Assembly (NCBI RefSeq): GCF_014199615.1
Contig: NZ_JACHOB010000002.1
Span: forward strand, 248,001 to 312,000
DNA length: 64,000 bases
Direction of reading: 5' to 3'
Origin: Parvularcula dongshanensis
GTDB lineage: Bacteria; Pseudomonadota; Alphaproteobacteria; Caulobacterales; Parvularculaceae
The notes under the pieces were generated by a model that saw only the letters and a list, made by a program, of their open reading frames with translations, was not told the DNA's origin and did not search any database. The number at the start of each line of letters is the position of its first letter. The first letter of the stretch is position 1. Positions 1 through 13,143 of the stretch are shown here, piece by piece. The translations under genes were made by a program, and so were the position numbers.

Positions 1-93
1 GACGACGCCCGCGCGCCCAGCGACGCCGCTGCGCTGCCCGTACTCCTCGTACTCCTTATTCCCTGCAGCCCCCCGGGAGCGGCATCGGACTAG
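1..93 (+). CDS. ilv operon leader peptide, 3' part (start lies before the window)
   Basis: The frame from base 1 is open to TAG at 91-93 and has no ATG, GTG or TTG, so the start lies upstream of the window. Codons at 40-60 read Val-Leu-Leu-Val-Leu-Leu-Ile (GTA CTC CTC GTA CTC CTT ATT), several of them uncommon in a high-GC genome, followed by Pro-Cys-Ser-Pro-Pro-Gly-Ala-Ala. This resembles the end of the E. coli IlvL leader, where a Val/Ile run is followed by Pro-Pro-Cys-Gly-Ala-Ala. A terminator hairpin and ilvD follow. Seen: composition, stop and position. Inferred: ribosome stalling on these codons senses branched-chain aminoacyl-tRNA. It could instead be the C-terminus of an ordinary upstream gene. 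Confidence 0.6.
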   Translation, partial: DDARAPSDAAALPVLLVLLIPCSPPGAASD

Positions 94-113
94 GCGTACC
101 AGCCTCCGACGCG

Positions 114-140
114 AAGCTCCCTCCGGGGAGCTTTTTTGTT
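114..140 (+). terminator. ilv attenuator terminator hairpin
   Basis: AAGCTCC (114-120) pairs with GGAGCTT (127-133) across a 6-base loop, and T132-T137 form the U-tract. It lies between the leader stop and the ilvD ATG. GGGAGC at 75-80 can pair with GCTCCC at 116-121 as a competing antiterminator. GCCGCT (25-30) or GCTGCCCG (33-40) can pair with CGGGAGCGGC (74-83) as the pause helix. These are the four segments of a classical attenuator, although no folding energies were computed. Confidence 0.7.
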
Positions 141-171
141 TCTGACCTCAGACTTCGAACGACAGATCGTA

Positions 172-1854
172 ATGACAAAGACCAAACGCAGCGACGCGAT
201 CACCAAAGGGCCGAGCCGGGCGGCTGCGCGCGCCATGCTGCGCGCGACCGGCATGACCGACGAAGACTTCGACAAGCCGATGGTCGCGGTCATCAACACC
301 TACTCCTCGGTCACGCCCTGCAACATGCACCTGCGGGACCTGGCGCCCAGCGTCCTGAAGGGCGTGCGCGAGGCGGGCGGCTGGCCGGTGGAGTTCGGCG
401 CCCTCGTCGTCTCGGACGGCATCACTATGGGCCATGAGGGCATGCGCGCGAGCCTGATGAGCCGCGAGGTCATCGCCGACTCGATCGAGCTGGCCGTGCG
501 CGGGCACGCGCTCGACGCGGCGGTCATCATGGTCGGCTGCGACAAGACCATCCCCGCCGCCGCCATGGCGCTCGCGCGCCTCGACGTGCCCGGCGTCGTC
601 TTCTACGGCGGCACGATCGCGGCGGGCTGCCCCGCCTCGGGCGCCAAGGCCGGACAGGACATCTCGATCCAAGACGCCTTCGAGGCGGTGGGCGCGCACG
701 GACGCGGCGCGATCGACGATGCGGAGCTCGGCGCGATCGAGCGCGCCGCCTGCCCCGGCGCGGGCTCCTGCGGCGGTCAGTTCACGGCCAACACCATGGC
801 GATGGCCCTCGCCTTCTTGGGGCTGGCTCCGATGGGCGCGGGCGATCCGCCCGCCGAGCATCCGGACAAGGCCGCCGAGGCCGAACGCTGCGGCCGCCTC
901 GCGGCGGAACGCGCCTTCGCGGAAGGCGGGCGCAGCTTCGTGACGGAGACGAGCCTGCGCAACGCCGCGCTCTCGGTCGTCGCCTCGGGCGGCTCGACCA
1001 ACGCGGTCCTGCACCTCGCCGCCATCGCGGCCGAGGCGGGTACGCCCTTCTCGATCGACGCCTTCGACGCCCTCTCGCGCGAGACGCCGGTGATCGCGAA
1101 CCTCAAGCCCGGCGGCCGCTACCTCGCCCAGGACCTTCACGCCGCCGGCGGCTGCCGCCGGTTCGGCCGGGTGCTGATGGAAGGCGGCTTCCTCGAGGAC
1201 GCGCCCACCGTTTCGGGCAAGTCTCTCTTCGAAGAGTTGAAAGGCGCCGAGGAGAGCGCCGACCGCGACGTGATCCGCCCCTTGGAAAACCCGGTGAAGA
1301 AGACCGGCGGGCTGCGCGTCCTCTACGGCGACGTCGCGCCCGAGGGGGCGGTCCTGAAGACGGCGGGCTACGCCGACGCGGCCTTCGAAGGCCCCGCGCG
1401 CATCTTCGAGAGCGAGGAGGACTGCTTTGCCGCGGTCCAGCGCGGCGAGATCGTGGCGGGCGACGTCTGCGTCATCCGCTATGAGGGCCCCGCGGGCGGC
1501 CCTGGCATGCGCGAGATGCTGGCGGTGACCGCCGCGCTCGCCGGCCAAGGCCTCGCGGGCAAGGTCGCGCTGATCACGGACGGCCGGTTCTCCGGCGCTT
1601 CCCACGGCTTCGTCATCGGCCACGTCGCGCCCGAGGCCGCGCGCGGCGGACCGATCGGCCTCCTGCAGGAAGGCGACATCATCCGCATCGACGCGGAGGG
1701 ACGCAGGATCGACGCCGACATCGACTGGGACGCACGCAGAGCCGCGCACACGCCCCGCCCGCTCCGCCGCATGGGCGGCTACTTCGACAAGTTCGCAGCG
1801 CTGGTCGGCTCGGCGAGCCAAGGCGCAACAACCATCATCCGCGAGGGAAAGTAA
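172..1854 (+). CDS. ilvD: dihydroxy-acid dehydratase IlvD
   Basis: Dehydrates 2,3-dihydroxy-isovalerate and 2,3-dihydroxy-3-methylvalerate to the 2-keto acids that precede valine/leucine and isoleucine. From the ATG at 172 the protein is 560 residues, normal for the family. The three expected iron-sulfur ligands are visible: Cys50 (TPCN), Cys123 (GCDK) and Cys200 (GAGSCGG), with the GCDKTIP lysine at 125. An in-frame TTG at 136 falls inside the attenuator U-tract, so the ATG at 172 is preferred. It is the first structural gene of the ilv operon and ends 4 bases before ilvC. Confidence 0.97.
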
Positions 1855-1858
1855 GATC

Positions 1859-2884
<1,026 letters not shown>

Positions 2885-2886
2885 TC

Positions 2887-3072
2887 GTGACGCGGCCGGC
2901 CTCTCCCGCCGAACGGGCGCGCAAGCGCTACGATCGCCTGGTCGCGGCCGGCCGCGTCCGCCTGCCCGAGCCGCCTGCCCCGGCGGCGCGGCCCGAACCC
3001 GAAGCGCCGTCCGAGGAGGACGCTGCGACCCCCGCCAACCCCTTCGCCGTCTTCATGGGATGCGCGCCATGA
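2887..3072 (+). CDS. small hypothetical protein between ilvC and ilvB
   Basis: 61 residues starting at GTG 2887, two bases after the ilvC stop, with a GGAG ribosome-binding site at 2876-2879. Its TGA (3070-3072) overlaps the ilvB ATG (3069-3071) as ATGA, the arrangement of translationally coupled genes. The N-terminal half is basic (RARKRYDRLVAAGRVRLPEP). The middle is Pro/Ala/Glu-rich and probably disordered. No signal peptide, membrane segment or known domain was recognised, so the function is unknown. Spacing and overlap argue for a real gene, but chance opening of a high-GC frame is not excluded. Confidence 0.55.
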   Translation: MTRPASPAERARKRYDRLVAAGRVRLPEPPAPAARPEPEAPSEEDAATPANPFAVFMGCAP

Positions 3073-4766
3073 GCCAGACCGCCAGAACCATCGCCCCCGA
3101 CGCCGAACCGAGGCCCATGACGGGCGCCCGCCTCGTGGTGGAAGCGCTCGTCGCCCATGGGATCGAGACCGTGTTCGGCTATCCCGGCGGCGCGATCATG
3201 CCCGTCTACGACGCCCTGCCGGGCTCCGGGCTTCGCCACATCCTCTGCCGTCACGAGCAGGCCTGCGCCTTCGCCGCGGCCGCTGTCGGGCGGATGACGC
3301 GCAAGGCCGGGGTCTGCATCGCGACCTCCGGCCCCGGCGCCACGAACCTCGTGACGGGCATCGCAGACGCCTACATGGACTCCGTCCCTCTGGTCGCGAT
3401 CACCGGCCAGGTCGCGCAGCCCGTCATGGGCACGGACGCCTTCCAGGAGATCGATACCTTCGGCATCACCATGCCGATCGTGAAGCACAGCTACATCGTT
3501 CGGCACGCGGACGACATCCCGGCCATCATCGCCGAGGCGTTCGACATCGCCGAGCACGGACGCCCGGGCCCCGTCCTGATCGACATCCCCAAGGACGTGC
3601 AGATGGCGGCGGCCGAAGGCGGCTCTTACGCCGCGCGGCATACGCCCGCCCCCTGCCTGGACGAAGAAGGGCTGCGCCGGGCCGAGGCCGCGGTGCGCGA
3701 AGCCAAGAAGCCGCTCTTCTACATCGGGGGCGGCACCGTCCGCTCGGGCGCCGTGGACGAGGTCCGTGCCCTCGTCGCACGGTCGGGCATCCCCGCCGTG
3801 TCGACGCTGCAGGGCCTCGGCGTCCTGCCGACCGGGCACCCGCAGTTCCTCGGCATGCTGGGCATGCATGGCAGCCGCGCGGCGAACATGGCGGTGCAGG
3901 AGTGCGACCTCCTGATCAACGTCGGCGCCCGCTTCGACGACCGCGCGACCGGCGCGCTCGAGAAGTTCGCGCCGCACGCGCGAGTGATCCACTTCGACAA
4001 GGACGCGAGCGAGATCTCGAAGCTGCGCCGCGCCGACGTGCCGGTCTCCTGCGACCTCAAGCCCGCTGTGCGCTCCTTCCGGCCGGAGCCCTCCGGCATC
4101 GAGCCGTGGGTGAAGCTGAACGAGGAGCGACGCCAGGCCTGCGCGCCGCGCTACGACGCGCCGGTCAGCGGCATCTATGCGCCCGCCCTCCTTCACCGCC
4201 TGTCCGAGAAGGCGGGGGACAAGTTCGTCGCCGTCCCGGACGTCGGCCAGCACCAGATGTGGGTCGCGCAGCACTGCCGCTTCTCGCGGCCCCAGGCGCA
4301 CATCACCTCGGGGGGCCTCGGCTCCATGGGCTTCTCCCTGCCGACGGCAGTGGGCGCGAAGTTCGCAGAGCCCGACGCCTGCGTCGTCTCGATCTCGGGC
4401 GACGGCGGCTTCATGATGAACATTCAAGAGCTCGCCACGCTGCGCCGCTACGGCGTGCCGCTCAAGGTGATCGTCCTCAACAACTCCCACCTCGGCATGG
4501 TCCGTCAGTGGCAGGACCTCTTCTTCGAGGGCAACCGCTCCGAGGTCGACCTTTCGGACAACCCCGACTTCGCCGTCGTCGCGCAGGCCTTCGGCGTCGA
4601 GGCGTTCACGATCGACAAGCCGGAGGAGGTCGAGGCCGGGCTCGACCGCCTGCTCGGCGCCGAAGGGCCGATCCTGATGCACGTCGTCATCGACCCCAAC
4701 GAGAACGTCTGGCCGCTGGTCGCGCCGGGCAAGGCGAACCACGAGATGCTGGACAAGGAAGGCTGA
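3069..4766 (+). CDS. ilvB: acetolactate synthase large subunit
   Basis: Thiamine-diphosphate enzyme joining pyruvate with pyruvate or 2-ketobutyrate. With the start at 3069 it has 565 residues. An ATG three codons earlier (3060) overlaps its own GGGA ribosome-binding site, while 3069 is spaced correctly and overlaps the preceding stop. Domain order is N-terminal pyrimidine-binding with catalytic Glu63 (RHEQA), a central domain, and a C-terminal diphosphate-binding domain with GDGG at 444-447 followed by LNNSHLG. The regulatory subunit gene begins one base after the stop. Symbols ilvB, ilvG and ilvI are used interchangeably for this family. Confidence 0.96.
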   Translation: MSQTARTIAPDAEPRPMTGARLVVEALVAHGIETVFGYPGGAIMPVYDALPGSGLRHILCRHEQACAFAAAAVGRMTRKAGVCIATSGPGATNLVTGIADAYMDSVPLVAITGQVAQPVMGTDAFQEIDTFGITMPIVKHSYIVRHADDIPAIIAEAFDIAEHGRPGPVLIDIPKDVQMAAAEGGSYAARHTPAPCLDEEGLRRAEAAVREAKKPLFYIGGGTVRSGAVDEVRALVARSGIPAVSTLQGLGVLPTGHPQFLGMLGMHGSRAANMAVQECDLLINVGARFDDRATGALEKFAPHARVIHFDKDASEISKLRRADVPVSCDLKPAVRSFRPEPSGIEPWVKLNEERRQACAPRYDAPVSGIYAPALLHRLSEKAGDKFVAVPDVGQHQMWVAQHCRFSRPQAHITSGGLGSMGFSLPTAVGAKFAEPDACVVSISGDGGFMMNIQELATLRRYGVPLKVIVLNNSHLGMVRQWQDLFFEGNRSEVDLSDNPDFAVVAQAFGVEAFTIDKPEEVEAGLDRLLGAEGPILMHVVIDPNENVWPLVAPGKANHEMLDKEG

Positions 4767-4767
4767 G

Positions 4768-5058
4768 ATGACGATCGAGACCTTCACCATCGAGAGCGAC
4801 GACGTGAACGGCACGCTGCGCCGCGTCTGGACCGTGATCGAGCAGCGCGGCTGGTCCGTCCGCTCCCTCCTCGTCGAGGAGGTCGAGGGCGGCGTCATGA
4901 CCCGCGTGCAGGTCAGCCCCTACGGAAACAACCGCTCGATCGAGACGCTCCGCTTGCAGATCGAGCGCCTCTACAACGTCCGTCGCGTGACGCTGGAGCG
5001 CCGCAGCCGTCAGAAGCCGAGCCGTTGGAAGGAGATCCCCCATGCGGCCGTCATCTGA
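4768..5058 (+). CDS. ilvN: acetolactate synthase small subunit, short ACT-only form
   Basis: A 96-residue protein with one ACT fold (about residues 3-75, including a VNGTLRRVWTVIEQRGW helix region), predicted to bind and activate the IlvB catalytic subunit. Usual alphaproteobacterial IlvN/IlvH proteins are about 160-190 residues with a second C-terminal domain, which is absent here. In size it is closer to the E. coli IlvM type, which is valine-insensitive. It starts one base after ilvB, and its last 17 bases overlap ilvA in another frame. Function is clear from position and the ACT fold. Feedback behaviour is inferred. Confidence 0.85.
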   Translation: MTIETFTIESDDVNGTLRRVWTVIEQRGWSVRSLLVEEVEGGVMTRVQVSPYGNNRSIETLRLQIERLYNVRRVTLERRSRQKPSRWKEIPHAAVI

Positions 5059-6316
5059 GGCGTTGGCGCTCGAAGAGGAGCCTGCCGTAGGAAACCCCCT
5101 CGGCTTGCCCGAACCCGAGTGGACCGCGATCACGACCAAGGCCGACCCCGCCTGGGGCGAGATCTTGGAGACGCCGTGCCTGAAGAGCCGCAAGCTGTCC
5201 GAAGAGACGGAGTGCGAGCTCCACCTCAAATACGAGAACCTTCAGTACACAGCGGCCTTCAAGGAGCGCGGCGCGCTCGCGAAGCTCCTGTCGCTGGCCC
5301 CTAAGGAACGCGCCTGCGGCGTCATCGCGGCGTCGGCGGGCAACCATGCCCAGGGCCTCGCCCGGCACGCGGCGCTCCTCGGCATCGAAGCGACGATCGT
5401 GATGCCGCAGCACACCCCTTCGGTGAAGGTCGAGGCGACGCGGCGCTTCGGCGCCAAGATCGTGCTGCACGGCGACGGCTTCGAAGAGGCGAACGCCGAG
5501 GCGCAGCGCGCCTGCGCGGCGGACGGCCTGACCCTCGTCCACCCCTTCGACGACCCTTACGTCTGCGCGGGGCAAGGCACGGTCGCGGCGGAGATGCTAG
5601 CCCAGGTCCCGGACATCGACACGCTCGTCGTGCCGATCGGCGGGGGCGGCCTCATCGCGGGCATCGCGTCCGTCGCGAAGGCGCGGCGTCCGGACGTCCG
5701 CGTGGTCGGCGTCCAGGCCGCGCTCTACCCCGGCATGATCAACGCGACCGAGAACCGGGCGGAGCCCTGCGGCGGCATGACGCTCGCCGAGGGCATCGCG
5801 GTCTGCAACCCGGGCGTCCTGACGCGCAGGATCGTCGGCGAGCTCGTCGACGAGATCGTCACGGTCGAGGAGCGCGACCTCGAGCGCGCCCTCTCCCTCC
5901 TCCTCGCGACGCAGAAGACGCTAGTGGAGGGCGCAGGGGCTGCAGGCCTCGCCGCGATCCTGGCGCATCCCAAGCTATTCGAAGGCCGCACGGTCGGCAG
6001 CGTCCTTTGCGGCGGGAACATCGACACCCGTCTCCTCTCCTCGATCCTGATGCGCGACCTCGCGCGCCAGCGGCGCCTCGCGCGGCTTCGGATCACGTTG
6101 ACGGACGTCCCCGGCCAGCTGACGCGGGTCTCCGCCGCGATCGGACGGGCGGGCGGCAACGTCATCGACGTCGCCTACCACAAGGTCTTCAACGACCTGC
6201 CGGCGAAGCAGACCCACCTCGACATATCGGTCGAGGCGAATGACGGCGCCCACATGGACCGCATCATCGAAACCTTGCGCGCGGACGGCCTACCCGTCGA
6301 GACGGCGAACTACTAA
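5042..6316 (+). CDS. ilvA: threonine dehydratase with C-terminal ACT domain
   Basis: PLP enzyme deaminating threonine to 2-ketobutyrate, the first committed step to isoleucine. The 424 residues comprise a fold-type II catalytic domain with the Schiff-base lysine at 74 (AAFKERGA) and a glycine phosphate loop GGGGL near 200, then one ACT domain from about residue 348 (RLRITLTDVPGQL). This matches the shorter Bacillus/Corynebacterium-type IlvA and not the 514-residue E. coli form. The start overlaps ilvN by 17 bases. It is the last gene of the ilv operon, followed by a 196-base gap with the leu leader. Confidence 0.94.
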   Translation: MRPSSEALALEEEPAVGNPLGLPEPEWTAITTKADPAWGEILETPCLKSRKLSEETECELHLKYENLQYTAAFKERGALAKLLSLAPKERACGVIAASAGNHAQGLARHAALLGIEATIVMPQHTPSVKVEATRRFGAKIVLHGDGFEEANAEAQRACAADGLTLVHPFDDPYVCAGQGTVAAEMLAQVPDIDTLVVPIGGGGLIAGIASVAKARRPDVRVVGVQAALYPGMINATENRAEPCGGMTLAEGIAVCNPGVLTRRIVGELVDEIVTVEERDLERALSLLLATQKTLVEGAGAAGLAAILAHPKLFEGRTVGSVLCGGNIDTRLLSSILMRDLARQRRLARLRITLTDVPGQLTRVSAAIGRAGGNVIDVAYHKVFNDLPAKQTHLDISVEANDGAHMDRIIETLRADGLPVETANY

Positions 6317-6363
6317 GCTGCCGTCAAAGGCGGAACGACGCTGAACCCCTCGGGAGGCCCAAG

Positions 6364-6435
6364 ATGCAACGAGCGAGCGGAATGAGAACGCTATCACTAT
6401 ACGGACGGCGCCTTAGCGGCACCTCGGGGGCGTAA
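6364..6435 (+). CDS. leu operon leader peptide
   Basis: A 23-codon ORF with a near-perfect ribosome-binding site GGGAGG (6352-6357) spaced six bases from its ATG. It encodes MQRASGMRTLSLYGRRLSG and four more residues before TAA. The Leu codons are CTA (6391-6393), CTA (6397-6399) and CTT, which are rare choices in this GC-rich DNA. It sits 77 bases upstream of leuA. Position, ribosome-binding site and rare Leu codons suggest a leucine-sensing leader peptide. Three Leu codons are fewer than in enteric leuL, so mechanism and strength are inferred. Confidence 0.6.
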   Translation: MQRASGMRTLSLYGRRLSGTSGA

Positions 6436-6493
6436 GCGTCCGAGGCGAAACGGTTTCCCTTTTCATATTCCGTCCCCACCTTCCGGGGAACGG
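6403..6493 (+). promoter_or_regulatory. leuA leader with alternative RNA helices
   Basis: Two hairpins follow or overlap the leader ORF. CCTCGG...CCGAGG (6422-6445) is capped by a GC-closed GUAA tetraloop and followed by a pyrimidine-rich CCCTTTT (6457-6463). CCGTCCCC (6470-6477) pairs with GGGG-A-ACGG (6485-6493). GGACGG (6403-6408), just after the Leu codons, is exactly complementary to CCGTCC (6470-6475), so the second hairpin has a competitor. The ribosome-binding site AGAGG (6503-6507) and the leuA ATG follow directly. Neither hairpin has a strong U-tract, so translational control is as possible as transcriptional attenuation. Confidence 0.45.
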
Positions 6494-6512
6494 TCCGCTT
6501 CCAGAGGCTTCC

Positions 6513-7693
6513 ATGACCTACACCCCCGCGCCGATCGTCCGCATCTTCGACACCACGCTGCGCGACGGCGAGCAGTCGCCCGGCTACTCGATGACGATGA
6601 AGGGCAAGCTGCGCATGGCCCGTGCCCTCTCCGCCCTCAAGGTGGACGTGATCGAGGCGGGCTTCGCCGCCGCCTCCCCCGGTGACGCCGAGGCCGTGCG
6701 CGCCGTGGCGGAGGAGGCCGACGGGCCCATCGTCTGCTCCCTCGCCCGCGTGACCGAGCGCGACATCGACGCCGCGGCCAAGGCCCTCGACACCGCCAAG
6801 CGCAAGCGTGCCCACGTCTTCATCGGCACCTCGCCGCTGCACCGCGAGCACAAGCTCAAGATGCGCAAGGGCGAGATCCTGGACGCGATCGACCACGGCG
6901 TGCGCTACGCCCGCAAGGTCTTCGGCGACGTCGAGTTCTCGGCCGAGGACGCGATGCGGACCGAGAAGACCTTCCTGGCCGAGTGCCTGAAGACCGCGAA
7001 CGAGGCCGGCGCGACGACGCTGAACGTGCCCGACACCGTCGGCTACTTCACGCCGGAAGAGACGCATCGTCTCTTCTCCTACCTGATCGAGGCGGTCGAG
7101 CCGGACGACGACACGGTCTTCTCCGCCCACTGCCACGACGACCTCGGCATGGCGGTCGCGAACTCCCTCGCCGCTGTGCGCGCCGGGGTCCGCCAAATCG
7201 AGTGCACGATCAGCGGCATCGGCGAGCGCGCAGGCAACTGCGCGATGGAAGAGGCCGTGATGGCGATCAAGACGCGCCGCGACAGCTACGGCGTCGACAC
7301 CCTGGTGGACACGACGCAGTTCTACGACGCGGCGCGCACGCTCGAGGACATCACCGGCGAGAAGGTCGCGCGAAACAAGGCGATCACCGGCCGCAACGCC
7401 TTCGCCCACGAGGCGGGCATCCACCAGCACGGCATGCTCGCGAACCGCGAGACCTACGAGATCATGAAGCCCGAGGACGTCGGCGCGCCGCATTCGAGCC
7501 TGGTCCTCGGGAAGCACTCCGGTAAGCACGCGCTCTTCGCGCGCCTCGAGCAGCTCGGTCACGAGGTCTCGCCCGAGCGCCGGGACAGCGTCTTCGCCGC
7601 GTTCAAGATCCTGGCCGACGAGAAGCACGAAGTGTCGGACGAAGAGTTGCGCAGCCTGGTCTCGGGCGCCTCGAACCGGGTGGTGCCCGCGCT

Positions 7694-7697
<4 letters not shown>
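6513..7697 (+). CDS. leuA: 2-isopropylmalate synthase, form without the C-terminal regulatory domain
   Basis: Condenses acetyl-CoA with 2-ketoisovalerate, the entry step to leucine. The TIM-barrel signature [12 protein letters not shown] is at 13-24, the metal-binding AHCHDDLG near 205-212, GIGERAGN near 237 and [11 protein letters not shown] near 298. The protein stops at 394 residues, shortly after the linker (communication) region. Typical LeuA has 510-570 residues with a further leucine-binding regulatory domain. The stop overlaps the leuC GTG (GTGA), so the short end is genuine operon structure and not a window artefact. A homocitrate or citramalate synthase is possible for the family, but leuCDB context favours LeuA. 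Confidence 0.9.
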
Positions 7698-9094
<1,397 letters not shown>

Positions 9095-9097
9095 GCC

Positions 9098-9141
9098 TTC
9101 ACCCCAAATCGAAGATTTGGACCTCTCACAGAGGGAGAGGT
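9098..9141 (+). repeat. REP-like two-hairpin element, copy 1
   Basis: A 44-base unit made of two adjacent hairpins: CCAAATC-GAA-GATTTGG (9104-9120) and ACCTCTC-N7-GAGAGGT (9121-9141). It aligns without gaps to the reverse complement of 9177-9220 at 32 of 44 positions. Several stem differences are compensatory, so pairing is kept. It begins four bases after the leuC stop. Confidence 0.65.
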
Positions 9142-9176
9142 AGGCAAGCGGCGACCTTCCCTCTCGATACGCGCCC

Positions 9177-9220
9177 GTCTCTCCCTTTGGGAGAGACCGA
9201 CATCTTCGATGTCGAGTGAG
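9177..9220 (-). repeat. REP-like two-hairpin element, copy 2 (inverted)
   Basis: This is the inverted partner of the element at 9098-9141. It contains GTCTCTCCC-TTT-GGGAGAGAC (9177-9197), a perfect 9-bp stem, and CGACATC-TTC-GATGTCG (9198-9214), a perfect 7-bp stem. The two copies face each other across about 35 bases, like the paired units of bacterial interspersed mosaic elements. They may stabilise or process the leuC-leuD mRNA junction. Confidence 0.65.
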
Positions 9221-9244
9221 GGCAAGCAACCTTAGACGTACGCA

Positions 9245-10875
<1,631 letters not shown>

Positions 10876-10938
10876 CGCCGCATTCGGCACCGGCGCCGAG
10901 CGCTCTACCTTCCATTCGAGACGGTAGGAGCCTCACAC

Positions 10939-12093
10939 ATGGACGGCAGCGCGGCGCTGACGGCGGAGACGGTTCCGTCGATAGACGAGATCGGCAAGGC
11001 GGCCTGGGACGCGCAGGCGAACCCTGAGGGCCGCCCCTTCCACCCCTTCGTCGCCTACGACTTCCTGCACGCCCTCGAAGAGTCGGGCTCGGTGAAACCG
11101 GAGACCGGCTGGGCGCCCCGCCACCTCGTCCTCAAGCGCGACGGCGAGGTGATCGGCGTGCAGCCCGCCTATCTGAAGGGCCACAGCCAGGGCGAGTACG
11201 TCTTCGACCACGCCTTCGCCGACGCCTACCGCCGGGCGGGAGGCCGCTACTACCCCAAGCTCCTCTCCGCCGTCCCCTTCACGCCCGCGACCGGGCCGCG
11301 ACTCCTCTCCGCTACCGAGGAGGGCCGCGAACTGCTGGCGAGCGTCGGCCCGCAGGTCGCGGACCAGCTTAGCCTTTCGACCTTCGCCGTGAACTTTCCC
11401 GAACCGGCCGAGAAGGACCTCCTCGAAGCCTCGAGCTACCTCATCCGCAGCGGGCAGCAGTACCACTTCCGCGATGCGGGCTACGGCGACTGGCAGGGCT
11501 TCCTCGGCGCCCTCAATGCCCGGCACCGCAAGTCGCTGCGCAAGGAGCGCGAGGCGGTCGCGTCCTGCGGCGTCGACATCCGCTGGCTGACCGGCAGCGA
11601 CGTCACCGAGGACGTCCTCGACGCCTTCTGGACCTTCTATCAGGACACCGGCGAGCGAAAGTGGGGCTCGCCCTACCTGACCCGCTCCTTCTTCAGCCTT
11701 CTGACCGAGCGGATGGCGGACCGTCTCCTCTTCATCATGGCCTACAGAAACGGACGGCCCATCGCTGGCGCGATGAACCTGATCGGGGACGAGACGCTCT
11801 ATGGCCGCTACTGGGGCCGGACCGAGCACGTGCCGTTCCTCCACTTCGAGGTCTGCTACTACCAGGCGATCGACTTCGCCCTCTCCCGCGGGCTCTCGCG
11901 CGTCGAAGCGGGCGCCCAGGGCGAGCACAAGGTCGCCCGCGGCTACGCGCCGGTCGCGACCTACTCCGCGCACTGGTTCCGCGACGCGAACTTCCGCGAG
12001 GCCGTGGCGCACTACCTGGCCCATGAGCGCGAGGCGGTGGACGAGGAGATCGCGTATCTGAGCGAGTTCACACCCTTCAAGCGGAAGGAATGA
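10939..12093 (+). CDS. FemAB/GNAT-like protein of the DUF482 (COG3146) type
   Basis: A 384-residue soluble protein. The N-terminal HPFVAYDFLHALEESG, the NARHRKSLRKERE block in the middle and the C-terminal GAQGEHKVARGYAP are typical of the DUF482 family, which shares the FemAB/GNAT acyltransferase fold and has been loosely linked to peptidoglycan. No signal peptide or membrane segment is seen. A purine-rich GGTAGGAG ribosome-binding site precedes the ATG. Its stop overlaps or abuts the next small gene. The substrate is unknown; family assignment is from recognition of these blocks. Confidence 0.8.
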   Translation: MDGSAALTAETVPSIDEIGKAAWDAQANPEGRPFHPFVAYDFLHALEESGSVKPETGWAPRHLVLKRDGEVIGVQPAYLKGHSQGEYVFDHAFADAYRRAGGRYYPKLLSAVPFTPATGPRLLSATEEGRELLASVGPQVADQLSLSTFAVNFPEPAEKDLLEASSYLIRSGQQYHFRDAGYGDWQGFLGALNARHRKSLRKEREAVASCGVDIRWLTGSDVTEDVLDAFWTFYQDTGERKWGSPYLTRSFFSLLTERMADRLLFIMAYRNGRPIAGAMNLIGDETLYGRYWGRTEHVPFLHFEVCYYQAIDFALSRGLSRVEAGAQGEHKVARGYAPVATYSAHWFRDANFREAVAHYLAHEREAVDEEIAYLSEFTPFKRKE

Positions 12094-12131
12094 CGCGTTA
12101 CCCTCTCGCCGAGCACTCGGGGGAACGCGTC

Positions 12132-12641
12132 GTGAAACGTCATCTTCGGTTCGCCTCGCTGGGCGCCGCCTTGCTGCTCGCCGCCTGCGCGACCTCGGAA
12201 GGACAGTTGCAGCCCGGCTTCCGCCTGCCGTCCAAGACCGGATACAGCTACTTCAGTTGGGGCAAGCCGAACGTCAGCCGGTCGCAGTACGACGACGCGT
12301 CCGTCGACTGCGTGATCGAGGGCGCCTCCGTCGCGGTCGATCCGCAGGCGCTCGAGGACTTCGCGTTCGCGCTCGATCCGGGCGACGCGGTGGACCTCGC
12401 CCGCATCCGCAACGTCGAGATGTCGCGGGAACGGGCGGTGATCCGGGAGCGGCGCGAGGCGATCGAAGGCTGCTTGTGGCGCCGGGGCTTCGTCAAGTTC
12501 GGCCTGACGCCGGACCAGCTCGCGACGCTCGAGACGCTCGACCAGGGGACGCCGGAGCGGCGAGAGTACCTCTACGGCCTCGGCTCCGACCCCATGGTCC
12601 TCGCAGCGCAGGCCCTACCGGAGCTTCGGCCCGAACAGTAG
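12132..12641 (+). CDS. small lipoprotein of unknown function
   Basis: From the GTG at 12132 the product is 169 residues and starts MKRHLRFASLGAALLLAACAT, a lipoprotein signal with lipobox LAAC (lipid-bearing Cys at about 19). GGGGAA at 12119-12124 is a suitable ribosome-binding site. An ATG at 12090 would overlap the previous stop but put 14 extra residues before the signal, so it is disfavoured. The mature part has two further cysteines (VDCVIEG, EGCLWRRGF) that could form a disulfide. No known domain was recognised. Likely periplasm-facing and anchored in a membrane. Confidence 0.75.
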   Translation: MKRHLRFASLGAALLLAACATSEGQLQPGFRLPSKTGYSYFSWGKPNVSRSQYDDASVDCVIEGASVAVDPQALEDFAFALDPGDAVDLARIRNVEMSRERAVIRERREAIEGCLWRRGFVKFGLTPDQLATLETLDQGTPERREYLYGLGSDPMVLAAQALPELRPEQ

Positions 12642-12699
12642 CGGCGCTGTCGCTGGACAGGCGGGCTGCCCGGGACCACGATGCGGACGGGAGGATGCC

Positions 12700-13143
12700 A
12701 TGAAACTCATCGCCTTCGCTGCCGCCCTTCTCCTCGCTGCCTGCGCGACGACCTCTGCCGATCCGGGCGCCGGGGGCGTCGAGCGCTACGTCGGCAAGCC
12801 GATCACGGCGGGCGGCTACAACTACCAGGTGACGAGCCGCCTGCGCGCCGTGCGGTCGGGCGAAGACGAGTGGGGGGTCTACCTCTACGGCACCTATAGC
12901 GGGACCGCCCCCGCCCTTCTCACCACGGCGCGCGTGAACGGGCAGGAGACCGAGTTCTCCGAACGGGACCGCCGGGTAACGTCGCCCTCGAACGTCCGGG
13001 AAAGCTTCGTTCTTCTCGTCCCGCGAGAGCTTCTGGCGGAGGAAAGCGAACCCTTCTCCGTCGAGCTCGTCGGCACGCGCCGGTCCGTCAGGCTTCAACT
13101 GCCCGAAGAGCGGCTCGAGGAGATCCGGGACGTGATCGAGTAG
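12700..13143 (+). CDS. small lipoprotein of unknown function
   Basis: 147 residues beginning MKLIAFAAALLLAACATTSAD, a clear lipoprotein signal with lipobox LAAC and Cys at about 15. The mature region is rich in predicted beta strand (YNYQVTSRLRAVRSG, WGVYLYGTYSG, FVLLVPRELL) and ends with an acidic helix. GGGAGGATGCC just before the ATG provides the ribosome-binding site. It follows another lipoprotein gene by 58 bases, suggesting co-transcription. No family recognised. Confidence 0.75.
   Translation: MKLIAFAAALLLAACATTSADPGAGGVERYVGKPITAGGYNYQVTSRLRAVRSGEDEWGVYLYGTYSGTAPALLTTARVNGQETEFSERDRRVTSPSNVRESFVLLVPRELLAEESEPFSVELVGTRRSVRLQLPEERLEEIRDVIE

Follow-up and report, generated by a model that had tools for sequence, protein, structure and literature searches.

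A putative ribosome-mediated attenuator ahead of an ilvD-first branched-chain amino acid operon in Parvularcula dongshanensis

The locus examined here raises the question of whether a large set of genes for isoleucine, valine and leucine synthesis in Parvularcula dongshanensis is governed by an attenuator of the classical kind, as had been proposed from the first 140 bases of a 64,000 nt stretch of contig NZ_JACHOB010000002.1 (assembly GCF_014199615.1; positions 248,001 to 312,000). This whole stretch is referred to as the window, and positions are counted within it unless stated otherwise. The genome comprises 3.13 Mb in 16 contigs. The anatomy of the leader, its recurrence in relatives, the competing helices, the match to the pathway and the recognition of known attenuators together lead us to conclude that a classical ribosome-mediated transcription attenuator for branched-chain amino acids very probably heads a nine-gene operon that begins with ilvD.

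The leader and the genes behind it

The features of the locus are as follows.

1–93, + strand: 3′ part of the leader-peptide frame, stop codon TAG at 91–93, read directly (peptide of the whole putative 38-codon leader: MPHRDDLTDDARAPSDAAALPVLLVLLIPCSPPGAASD)
40–60, + strand: control codons GTA CTC CTC GTA CTC CTT ATT (Val Leu Leu Val Leu Leu Ile)
75–89, + strand: antiterminator 5′ arm (75–80 GGGAGC, 82–83 GC, 85–89 TCGGA)
105–121, + strand: antiterminator 3′ arm (105–109 TCCGA, 111–112 GC, 116–121 GCTCCC)
113–137, + strand: intrinsic terminator (terminator scan), 9-pair stem GAAGCTCCC/GGGAGCTTT at 113–134, loop TCCG at 122–125, T-run at 132–137
172–1854, + strand: ilvD, dihydroxy-acid dehydratase, starting at ATG 172 (TIGR00110, above cut-off)
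1859–2884, + strand: ilvC, ketol-acid reductoisomerase (TIGR00465, above cut-off)
3060–4766, + strand: ilvG-type acetolactate synthase (AHAS) large subunit (NF006524, 846 bits, cut-off 738)
4768–5058, + strand: ilvM-sized acetolactate synthase small subunit, 96 aa, ACT_5 (PF13710, above cut-off)
5042–6316, + strand: ilvA, threonine ammonia-lyase (profile search)
6513–7697, + strand: leuA, 2-isopropylmalate synthase (profile search)
7694–9094, + strand: leuC, 3-isopropylmalate dehydratase large subunit (profile search)
9245–9826, + strand: leuD, 3-isopropylmalate dehydratase small subunit
9823–10875, + strand: leuB, 3-isopropylmalate dehydrogenase, from an ATG within the frame 9739–10875 (searched as 9820–10872)

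The frame at 1–93 had been read as a leader resembling the end of E. coli IlvL. The Val-Leu-Leu-Val-Leu-Leu-Ile run and the Pro-Cys-Ser-Pro-Pro-Gly-Ala-Ala tail are read directly (the codons 3′ of the control run are CCC TGC AGC CCC CCG GGA GCG GCA TCG GAC TAG), but the frame in the window is only the 3′ end of the leader, and no ATG, GTG or TTG occurs in this frame within 1–93. Two in-frame start-like codons lie in the 78 bases 5′ of base 1, GTG at L033:1923, which sits in the putative promoter, and GTG at L033:1977, 24 bases 5′ of the window. By exclusion our best guess at the start is the latter, from which the whole leader would span 38 codons. The upstream extension suggested with the original prediction has thereby supplied a candidate start codon, with no clear Shine-Dalgarno sequence ahead of it. 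The leaders of relatives start, by eye, at a similar distance, several of them with ATG. The open frame does not continue into a long conserved gene; it reaches back to the stop codon of the preceding gene, about 200 bases 5′ of the window, which has a GXGXG domain at its end (domain search) and, judged by eye, is gltB-like. TTGCG and GTTA(A/G)C are common to several of ten aligned upstream regions, and we take them to be the −35-like and −10-like elements of a putative promoter in the gltB–ilvD gap. A promoter scan from base 1 onward returned no promoter, including none between the T-run and ilvD.

The nine genes behind the leader lie on one strand in the order ilvD-C-G-M-A-leuA-C-D-B. They had initially been given as ilvDCBNA, which has to be amended to ilvD-C-G-M-A followed by leuACDB, the large AHAS subunit being IlvG-type and the small one IlvM-sized in the NCBIfam searches (the three NCBIfam matches of the latter are all under cut-off). 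The T-run ends 34 bases from ilvD, and in other loci the distance to the ilvD match is 14–104 bases. All nine genes would be cotranscribed, although further promoters could sit in the gaps ahead of ilvG (175 bases), leuA (196) and leuD (150). A 61-codon frame on the + strand (2887–3072) between ilvC and ilvG overlaps the ilvG start; it has no NCBIfam match and no Pfam match above cut-off, and P. oceani has a 50 % identical stretch in the corresponding position (L034, 8707–8898). The leuC–leuD spacer (9115–9225) contains inverted repeats, with CTCTCCCTTTGGGAGAG at 9179–9195 and a copy with 2 mismatches at 9123–9139; genome-wide, the motif has a single exact occurrence.

Distribution of the leader and kinship with known attenuators

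Two partly overlapping sets of relatives were compared. An ilvD match is present in 54 of 61 genomes of our collection, from which the best 30 loci, the own locus included, were analysed, and the second set consists of the best 80 of 581 loci from named organisms. The nearest IlvD proteins among the latter are from Parvularcula oceani (80 %) and P. mediterranea (75 %), in a set from which the same or very near genomes may be absent. Counts of 30, 80, 89, 108 and 110 keep the overlap between the sets (L006 and L034, for example, have the same leader), and counts of 81 refer to distinct leader sequences.

With a leader defined as at least 7 Val/Leu/Ile codons in 10 plus a T-run upstream of ilvD, 26 of the 30 collection loci (own counted) and 63 of the 80 named loci have one. 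The exceptions in the collection are L025, which is below the cut-off, and L030–L032, with a more distant IlvD (47–50 %). Thirteen of the 17 named loci that have no leader carry leuD-leuB immediately upstream, and in one just 53 nt are available upstream. Three loci that missed the criterion (L055, L076 and L113) nevertheless match the leader model R1 described below, at E 0.081, 9.4e-5 and 0.0045, respectively. The distance from the leader stop to the end of the T-run is 44–65 nt in 85 of 89 loci; it is 19–22 nt in L051, L071, L083 and L108 because the script chose the nearer T-run, and in the fold analysis the later one was sought. Chance is a poor source of such frames: a frame with at least 8 Val/Leu/Ile codons in 10 was found in 82 of the 108 upstream regions with the full 450 nt (of 110), compared with 2 of the 108 opposite strands and 6 of 1080 dinucleotide shuffles.

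By title, the named loci with a leader are from Parvularcula, Marinicaulis, Aquisalinus, Maricaulis, Robiginitomaculum, Hellea and Terricaulis, from Hyphomonadaceae and Caulobacteraceae bacteria, from many Brevundimonas and from Lysobacter sp. cf310, together with one metagenome-assembled genome labelled Bordetella and some loci titled Alphaproteobacteria alone. Loci of Citromicrobium, Novosphingopyxis and Alteriqipengyuania, which we take to belong to the Sphingomonadales, also have it. Though an ilvD-first arrangement is indeed not the enteric layout, as was pointed out in the original prediction, it is common among these relatives and hence not peculiar to this genome, and relatives likewise carry a Val/Leu/Ile run and alternative helices. 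Most leader-bearing named loci have ilvC, an AHAS large subunit gene and leuA downstream of ilvD, and an ilvA of the window type follows, as far as the loci reach, only in two Parvularcula species and the Lysobacter. The AHAS large subunits encoded downstream of ilvD/ilvC share 73–85 % identity with that of the window in L034 and L035 (Parvularcula), about 60 % in many others and 42–44 % in L036–L039, L041–L044 and L046, as if the gene had been swapped out in one branch.

The model R1 was built from 29 leaders of Parvularculaceae-like loci; with just 5 pairs in it, it relies mostly on sequence. In the order, searched under stricter filters, 97 of 249 genomes were matched, 96 of them once, and 152 gave no match. 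The order meant is that of the genome collection, presumably the broad Caulobacterales of GTDB; NCBI places Parvularcula in the Parvularculales. One family member has its match (G019:C11:24684-24818) on one contig and its best ilvD match, a distant one, on another; a divergent pair (G504:C33:75881-76582) is present in a single genome of the order. In 299 Pseudomonadota genomes R1 gave 14 matches in 13 genomes, the own genome included. Twelve of the non-own matches precede ilvG (6), ilvC (3) or leuA (3), identified by tblastn with the window proteins, and the remaining one precedes a thrA-like gene, its protein read by eye. Shared constraint, and not shared ancestry, may underlie these matches.

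The resemblance to the end of E. coli IlvL that had been noted is weak at the protein level, where 8 Parvularculaceae leaders gave no match to Pfam PF08046 (IlvGEDA_leader) at E up to 10, and better at the RNA level, where R1 recognises IlvL leaders, one of which matches PF08046 at 5.4e-20. Hence, the present leader probably works like ilvL though it lies outside the PF08046 profile. It has in common with ilvL of the enteric ilvGMEDA operon a Val/Leu/Ile codon run, a GC-rich arm (GGGGCGGC or GGGAGCGGC) followed by the stop codon, an intrinsic terminator and an IlvG-type gene behind. In E. coli, ilvG directly follows the leader and ilvE is present, whereas here ilvD is first, ilvC and leuACDB are added, and ilvE is not among the nine genes. 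The leaders found by R1 ahead of ilvC and leuA, known from sequence alone, likewise have a Val/Leu/Ile frame, similar arms and terminator and a branched-chain amino acid gene behind them, but differ in that ilvC or leuA is the first gene.

Also alphaproteobacterial is the attenuator of Caulobacter crescentus ilvBN, for which passages of PMC4117421 (citing Tarleton 1994) describe tandem Ile and Val codons and ribosome-mediated termination, and a figure legend in the same paper also names an ilvIH leader. As described there, it heads ilvBN and not, as here, the ilvD of a nine-gene pathway operon. A passage of PMC1273637 records a leader peptide for ilvB, likewise from the Alphaproteobacteria. 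The ilvD motif of PMC8632094 was considered as a counterpart and rejected, being a Veillonella element according to passages of that paper. Among the literature matches listed, no title or abstract opening announces an ilvD leader in these bacteria, nor do the extracted passages of PMC4117421, PMC2965389, PMC1273637 and PMC1183508 contain one; Tarleton 1994 and Vitreschak 2004 may describe part of it.

Competing helices in the leader RNA

The arms proposed earlier for the antiterminator and terminator are correct in substance; the scan puts the terminator stem at 113–134 with the T-run at 132–137, and folding gives the antiterminator. When the nascent RNA is folded without the terminator 3′ arm, 75–80 pairs with 116–121, 82–83 with 111–112, 85–89 with 105–109 and 93–95 with 102–104. 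The terminator 5′ arm overlaps the antiterminator 3′ arm, so that 116–121 is contested. The antiterminator 5′ arm is inside the leader frame, just 5′ of the stop codon, which is itself within the antiterminator. Taking the front edge of a ribosome to be about 12 nt ahead of a stalled codon, the stop is placed such that a terminating ribosome would cover 75–89, and the control codons at 40–60 such that a stalled one would not. In 1–12700, six terminator-like sites were found on both strands (3.8 ± 2.1 in shuffles), of which the leader terminator is the only one on the + strand.

The minimum-energy fold of the full own leader, from the GTG to 137, is the terminator form, and the own nascent RNA minus the terminator 3′ arm folds into the antiterminator at −26.2 kcal/mol (z = −2.95). 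Among the distinct leaders, the nascent RNA has z < −2 in 69 of 81, and 77 of 81 form the terminator, with at least 80 % of the 5′ arm engaged, once a ribosome is set at the stop codon. In the stalled state, the engagement of the terminator arm averages 0.63 against 0.50 in shuffles (at least 0.6 in 54 of 81), an excess that is modest because the arm is C-rich. This occupancy is often low in a group made up mostly of Brevundimonas, in our view because the last Val/Leu/Ile codon taken by the script may lie in the arm. The folding proposed as a check thus gives both alternative forms in the own leader. A protector (1:2) hairpin would favour termination when the leader is untranslated; the full own leader does fold with the terminator, but only 2 of 81 nascent folds leave the terminator arm largely free of upstream pairing. 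The fold of the own 21–137 also contains the pause pairing that had been placed at 25–40 (about 25–30 with 78–83); no evidence for its conservation was found.

Covariation was assessed in alignment A4, comprising 83 R1-matched leaders from 84 sources and fitted to a model that already holds 5 antiterminator pairs, against 500 shuffles with relatedness uncontrolled. On three of five pairing measures, and with that same proviso on relatedness, both helices exceed all 500 shuffles. For the terminator, 85.9 % of cells are paired (79.6 ± 0.6 in shuffles), 29 cells are double-changed (8.4 ± 2.2) and the covariation score is 0.130 (0.043), each with 0/500 shuffles as high. The corresponding values for the outer helix of the antiterminator, again with 0/500 as high, are 86.9 % (84.3 ± 0.5), 15 (4.8 ± 1.8) and 0.111 (0.080). 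The other two measures are not beyond every shuffle, pairs with a double change being matched or exceeded in 62/500 (terminator) and 14/500 (antiterminator), and further pair types in 33/500 and 23/500, respectively. Sliding the partners by 1–3 columns lowers the paired percentage to 40–52 % (terminator) and 26–64 % (antiterminator), with double changes similar to the real ones (terminator 25 at +1 and 29 at +2; antiterminator 14 at +3). Within the Parvularculaceae only (alignments A1 and A2), no measure for the antiterminator is clearly beyond shuffles because the pairs are too conserved there. The terminator in this family has 20 double-changed cells against 7.7 ± 1.9, though these are two columns that mostly divide one genus from the rest and may represent one event. 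In an arm-swap test, own pairs were favoured in seven of eight groups (fractions 0.56–0.97); in Parvularcula, own arms pair no better than with those of other clades (fraction 0.35).

The leader frame, the control codons, both helices, their recurrence, the spacing and the genes are shown by sequence and by comparison with relatives. We infer from them a promoter, the GTG start, translation of the leader, termination and a response to starvation, which would operate as follows. RNA polymerase would start in the gltB–ilvD gap, with a ribosome translating the 38-codon leader behind it. Under a shortage of charged tRNA-Val, tRNA-Leu or tRNA-Ile, the ribosome would stall at 40–60 and leave 75–89 free to pair with 105–121, thereby using up the terminator 5′ arm and allowing transcription into ilvD-C-G-M-A-leuA-C-D-B. 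With an ample supply of these amino acids, it would instead be the stop that the ribosome reaches, at 91–93, and the ribosome would cover 75–89, whereupon 113–121 would pair with 126–134 and transcription would end at 132–137.

Other readings of the same locus were weighed. The frame might encode a small hydrophobic protein with an action of its own, the terminator merely ending its transcript; hydrophobicity would be expected of a 38 aa peptide built around VLLVLLI, and a Sinorhizobium leader peptide is reported (PMC7298713) to function in trans. However, as judged by reading the leaders, the residues flanking the Val/Leu/Ile run differ from one leader to another in sequence and in number, and the stop moves, whereas the RNA arms persist, rare synonymous codons concentrate in the control run (below), and a protein gives no role to an antiterminator that shares an arm with the terminator, so that we consider this reading very improbable. 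Slightly less probable still is a metabolite-sensing riboswitch or protein-bound RNA leader in which the frame is incidental. A strongly structured nascent RNA and a terminator ahead of a biosynthetic operon would suit it, but a search of Rfam 15 with 601 bases returned only 7 matches at E 2.6–7.7, all below the gathering scores, and none relevant at E up to 10; relatives also have the Val/Leu/Ile frame, which is nearly missing from antisense and shuffled sequence, and by eye there is no constant aptamer-like core apart from the shared arms. A similarly slight chance attaches to a leader that is not regulatory, the terminator ending another transcript and ilvD having its own promoter downstream of it, since, even though the transcription start is inferred and the promoter scan began at window base 1, the T-run stands so close to ilvD here and in other loci, the scan was empty between them, the preceding gene stops well upstream of the window, and the leader/terminator geometry is kept across loci. 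Ribosome-mediated attenuation, which the original prediction had placed ahead of ilvD, is the reading in which the leader, the control codons, the competing helices and the recurrence in relatives all have a place.

Choice of control codons

Codon usage was referred to eight genes, namely seven of the nine operon genes (excluding ilvM and leuB) and the next gene. In these, GTA accounts for 0.4 % of 254 Val codons and ATT for 0.7 % of 152 Ile codons (one codon each), and CTT for 6.4 % of 282 Leu codons, yet among the seven control codons of the leader GTA occurs twice and ATT and CTT once each. Under the eight-gene frequencies, GTA at two of two Val codons has a probability of 1.6e-5. In 71 of 81 loci the GC3 of the Val/Leu/Ile control codons falls short of that of the same codons of ilvD (Wilcoxon p 8e-13, relatedness uncorrected), and in 65 of 81 it is below that of the preceding leader codons. 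The bias is weakest in Robiginitomaculum-like loci (GC3 0.54 against 0.60). In 22 leaders, mostly of Brevundimonas, CTG makes up 14 % of the Leu codons of the control run against 94 % of those of ilvD.

The 40 tRNA matches in the genome include one gene each for tRNA-Leu GAG, CAG, TAG, CAA and TAA and for tRNA-Val TAC, GAC and CAC. No tRNA-Ile (GAT) is among them, and this gene may be in an rRNA operon that is absent from the assembly. Passages of PMC1183508 explain the codon bias of attenuators by selective charging of isoacceptors and caution that codon rarity is only part of the rule. The Salmonella leu attenuator treated in them also has control codons (CUA) that are little used in genes, and differs from the present leader, in which GTA, CTC/CTT and ATT serve three amino acids together. 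Low usage of the control codons, not charging, is what our data show. An idea to which we give about even chances is that a single leader, old in this order, reads the three amino acids via codons of particular isoacceptors (Leu CTC/CTT with one tRNA-Leu GAG gene, Val GTA and Ile ATT) and so sets the whole nine-gene isoleucine-valine-leucine pathway, the preferred synonyms being avoided clade after clade.

The mechanism is a textbook one, and it is the layout, the breadth and the codon rule that are worth recording. A nine-gene branched-chain operon that begins with ilvD would be headed by a classical attenuator, and its leader has counterparts in 97 of 249 genomes of the order. Control codons that avoid the preferred synonyms lend themselves to a clean test of why attenuators use particular codons and, if the idea of isoacceptor reading is true, the selective-charging theory of attenuator codons would become testable outside the enteric bacteria.
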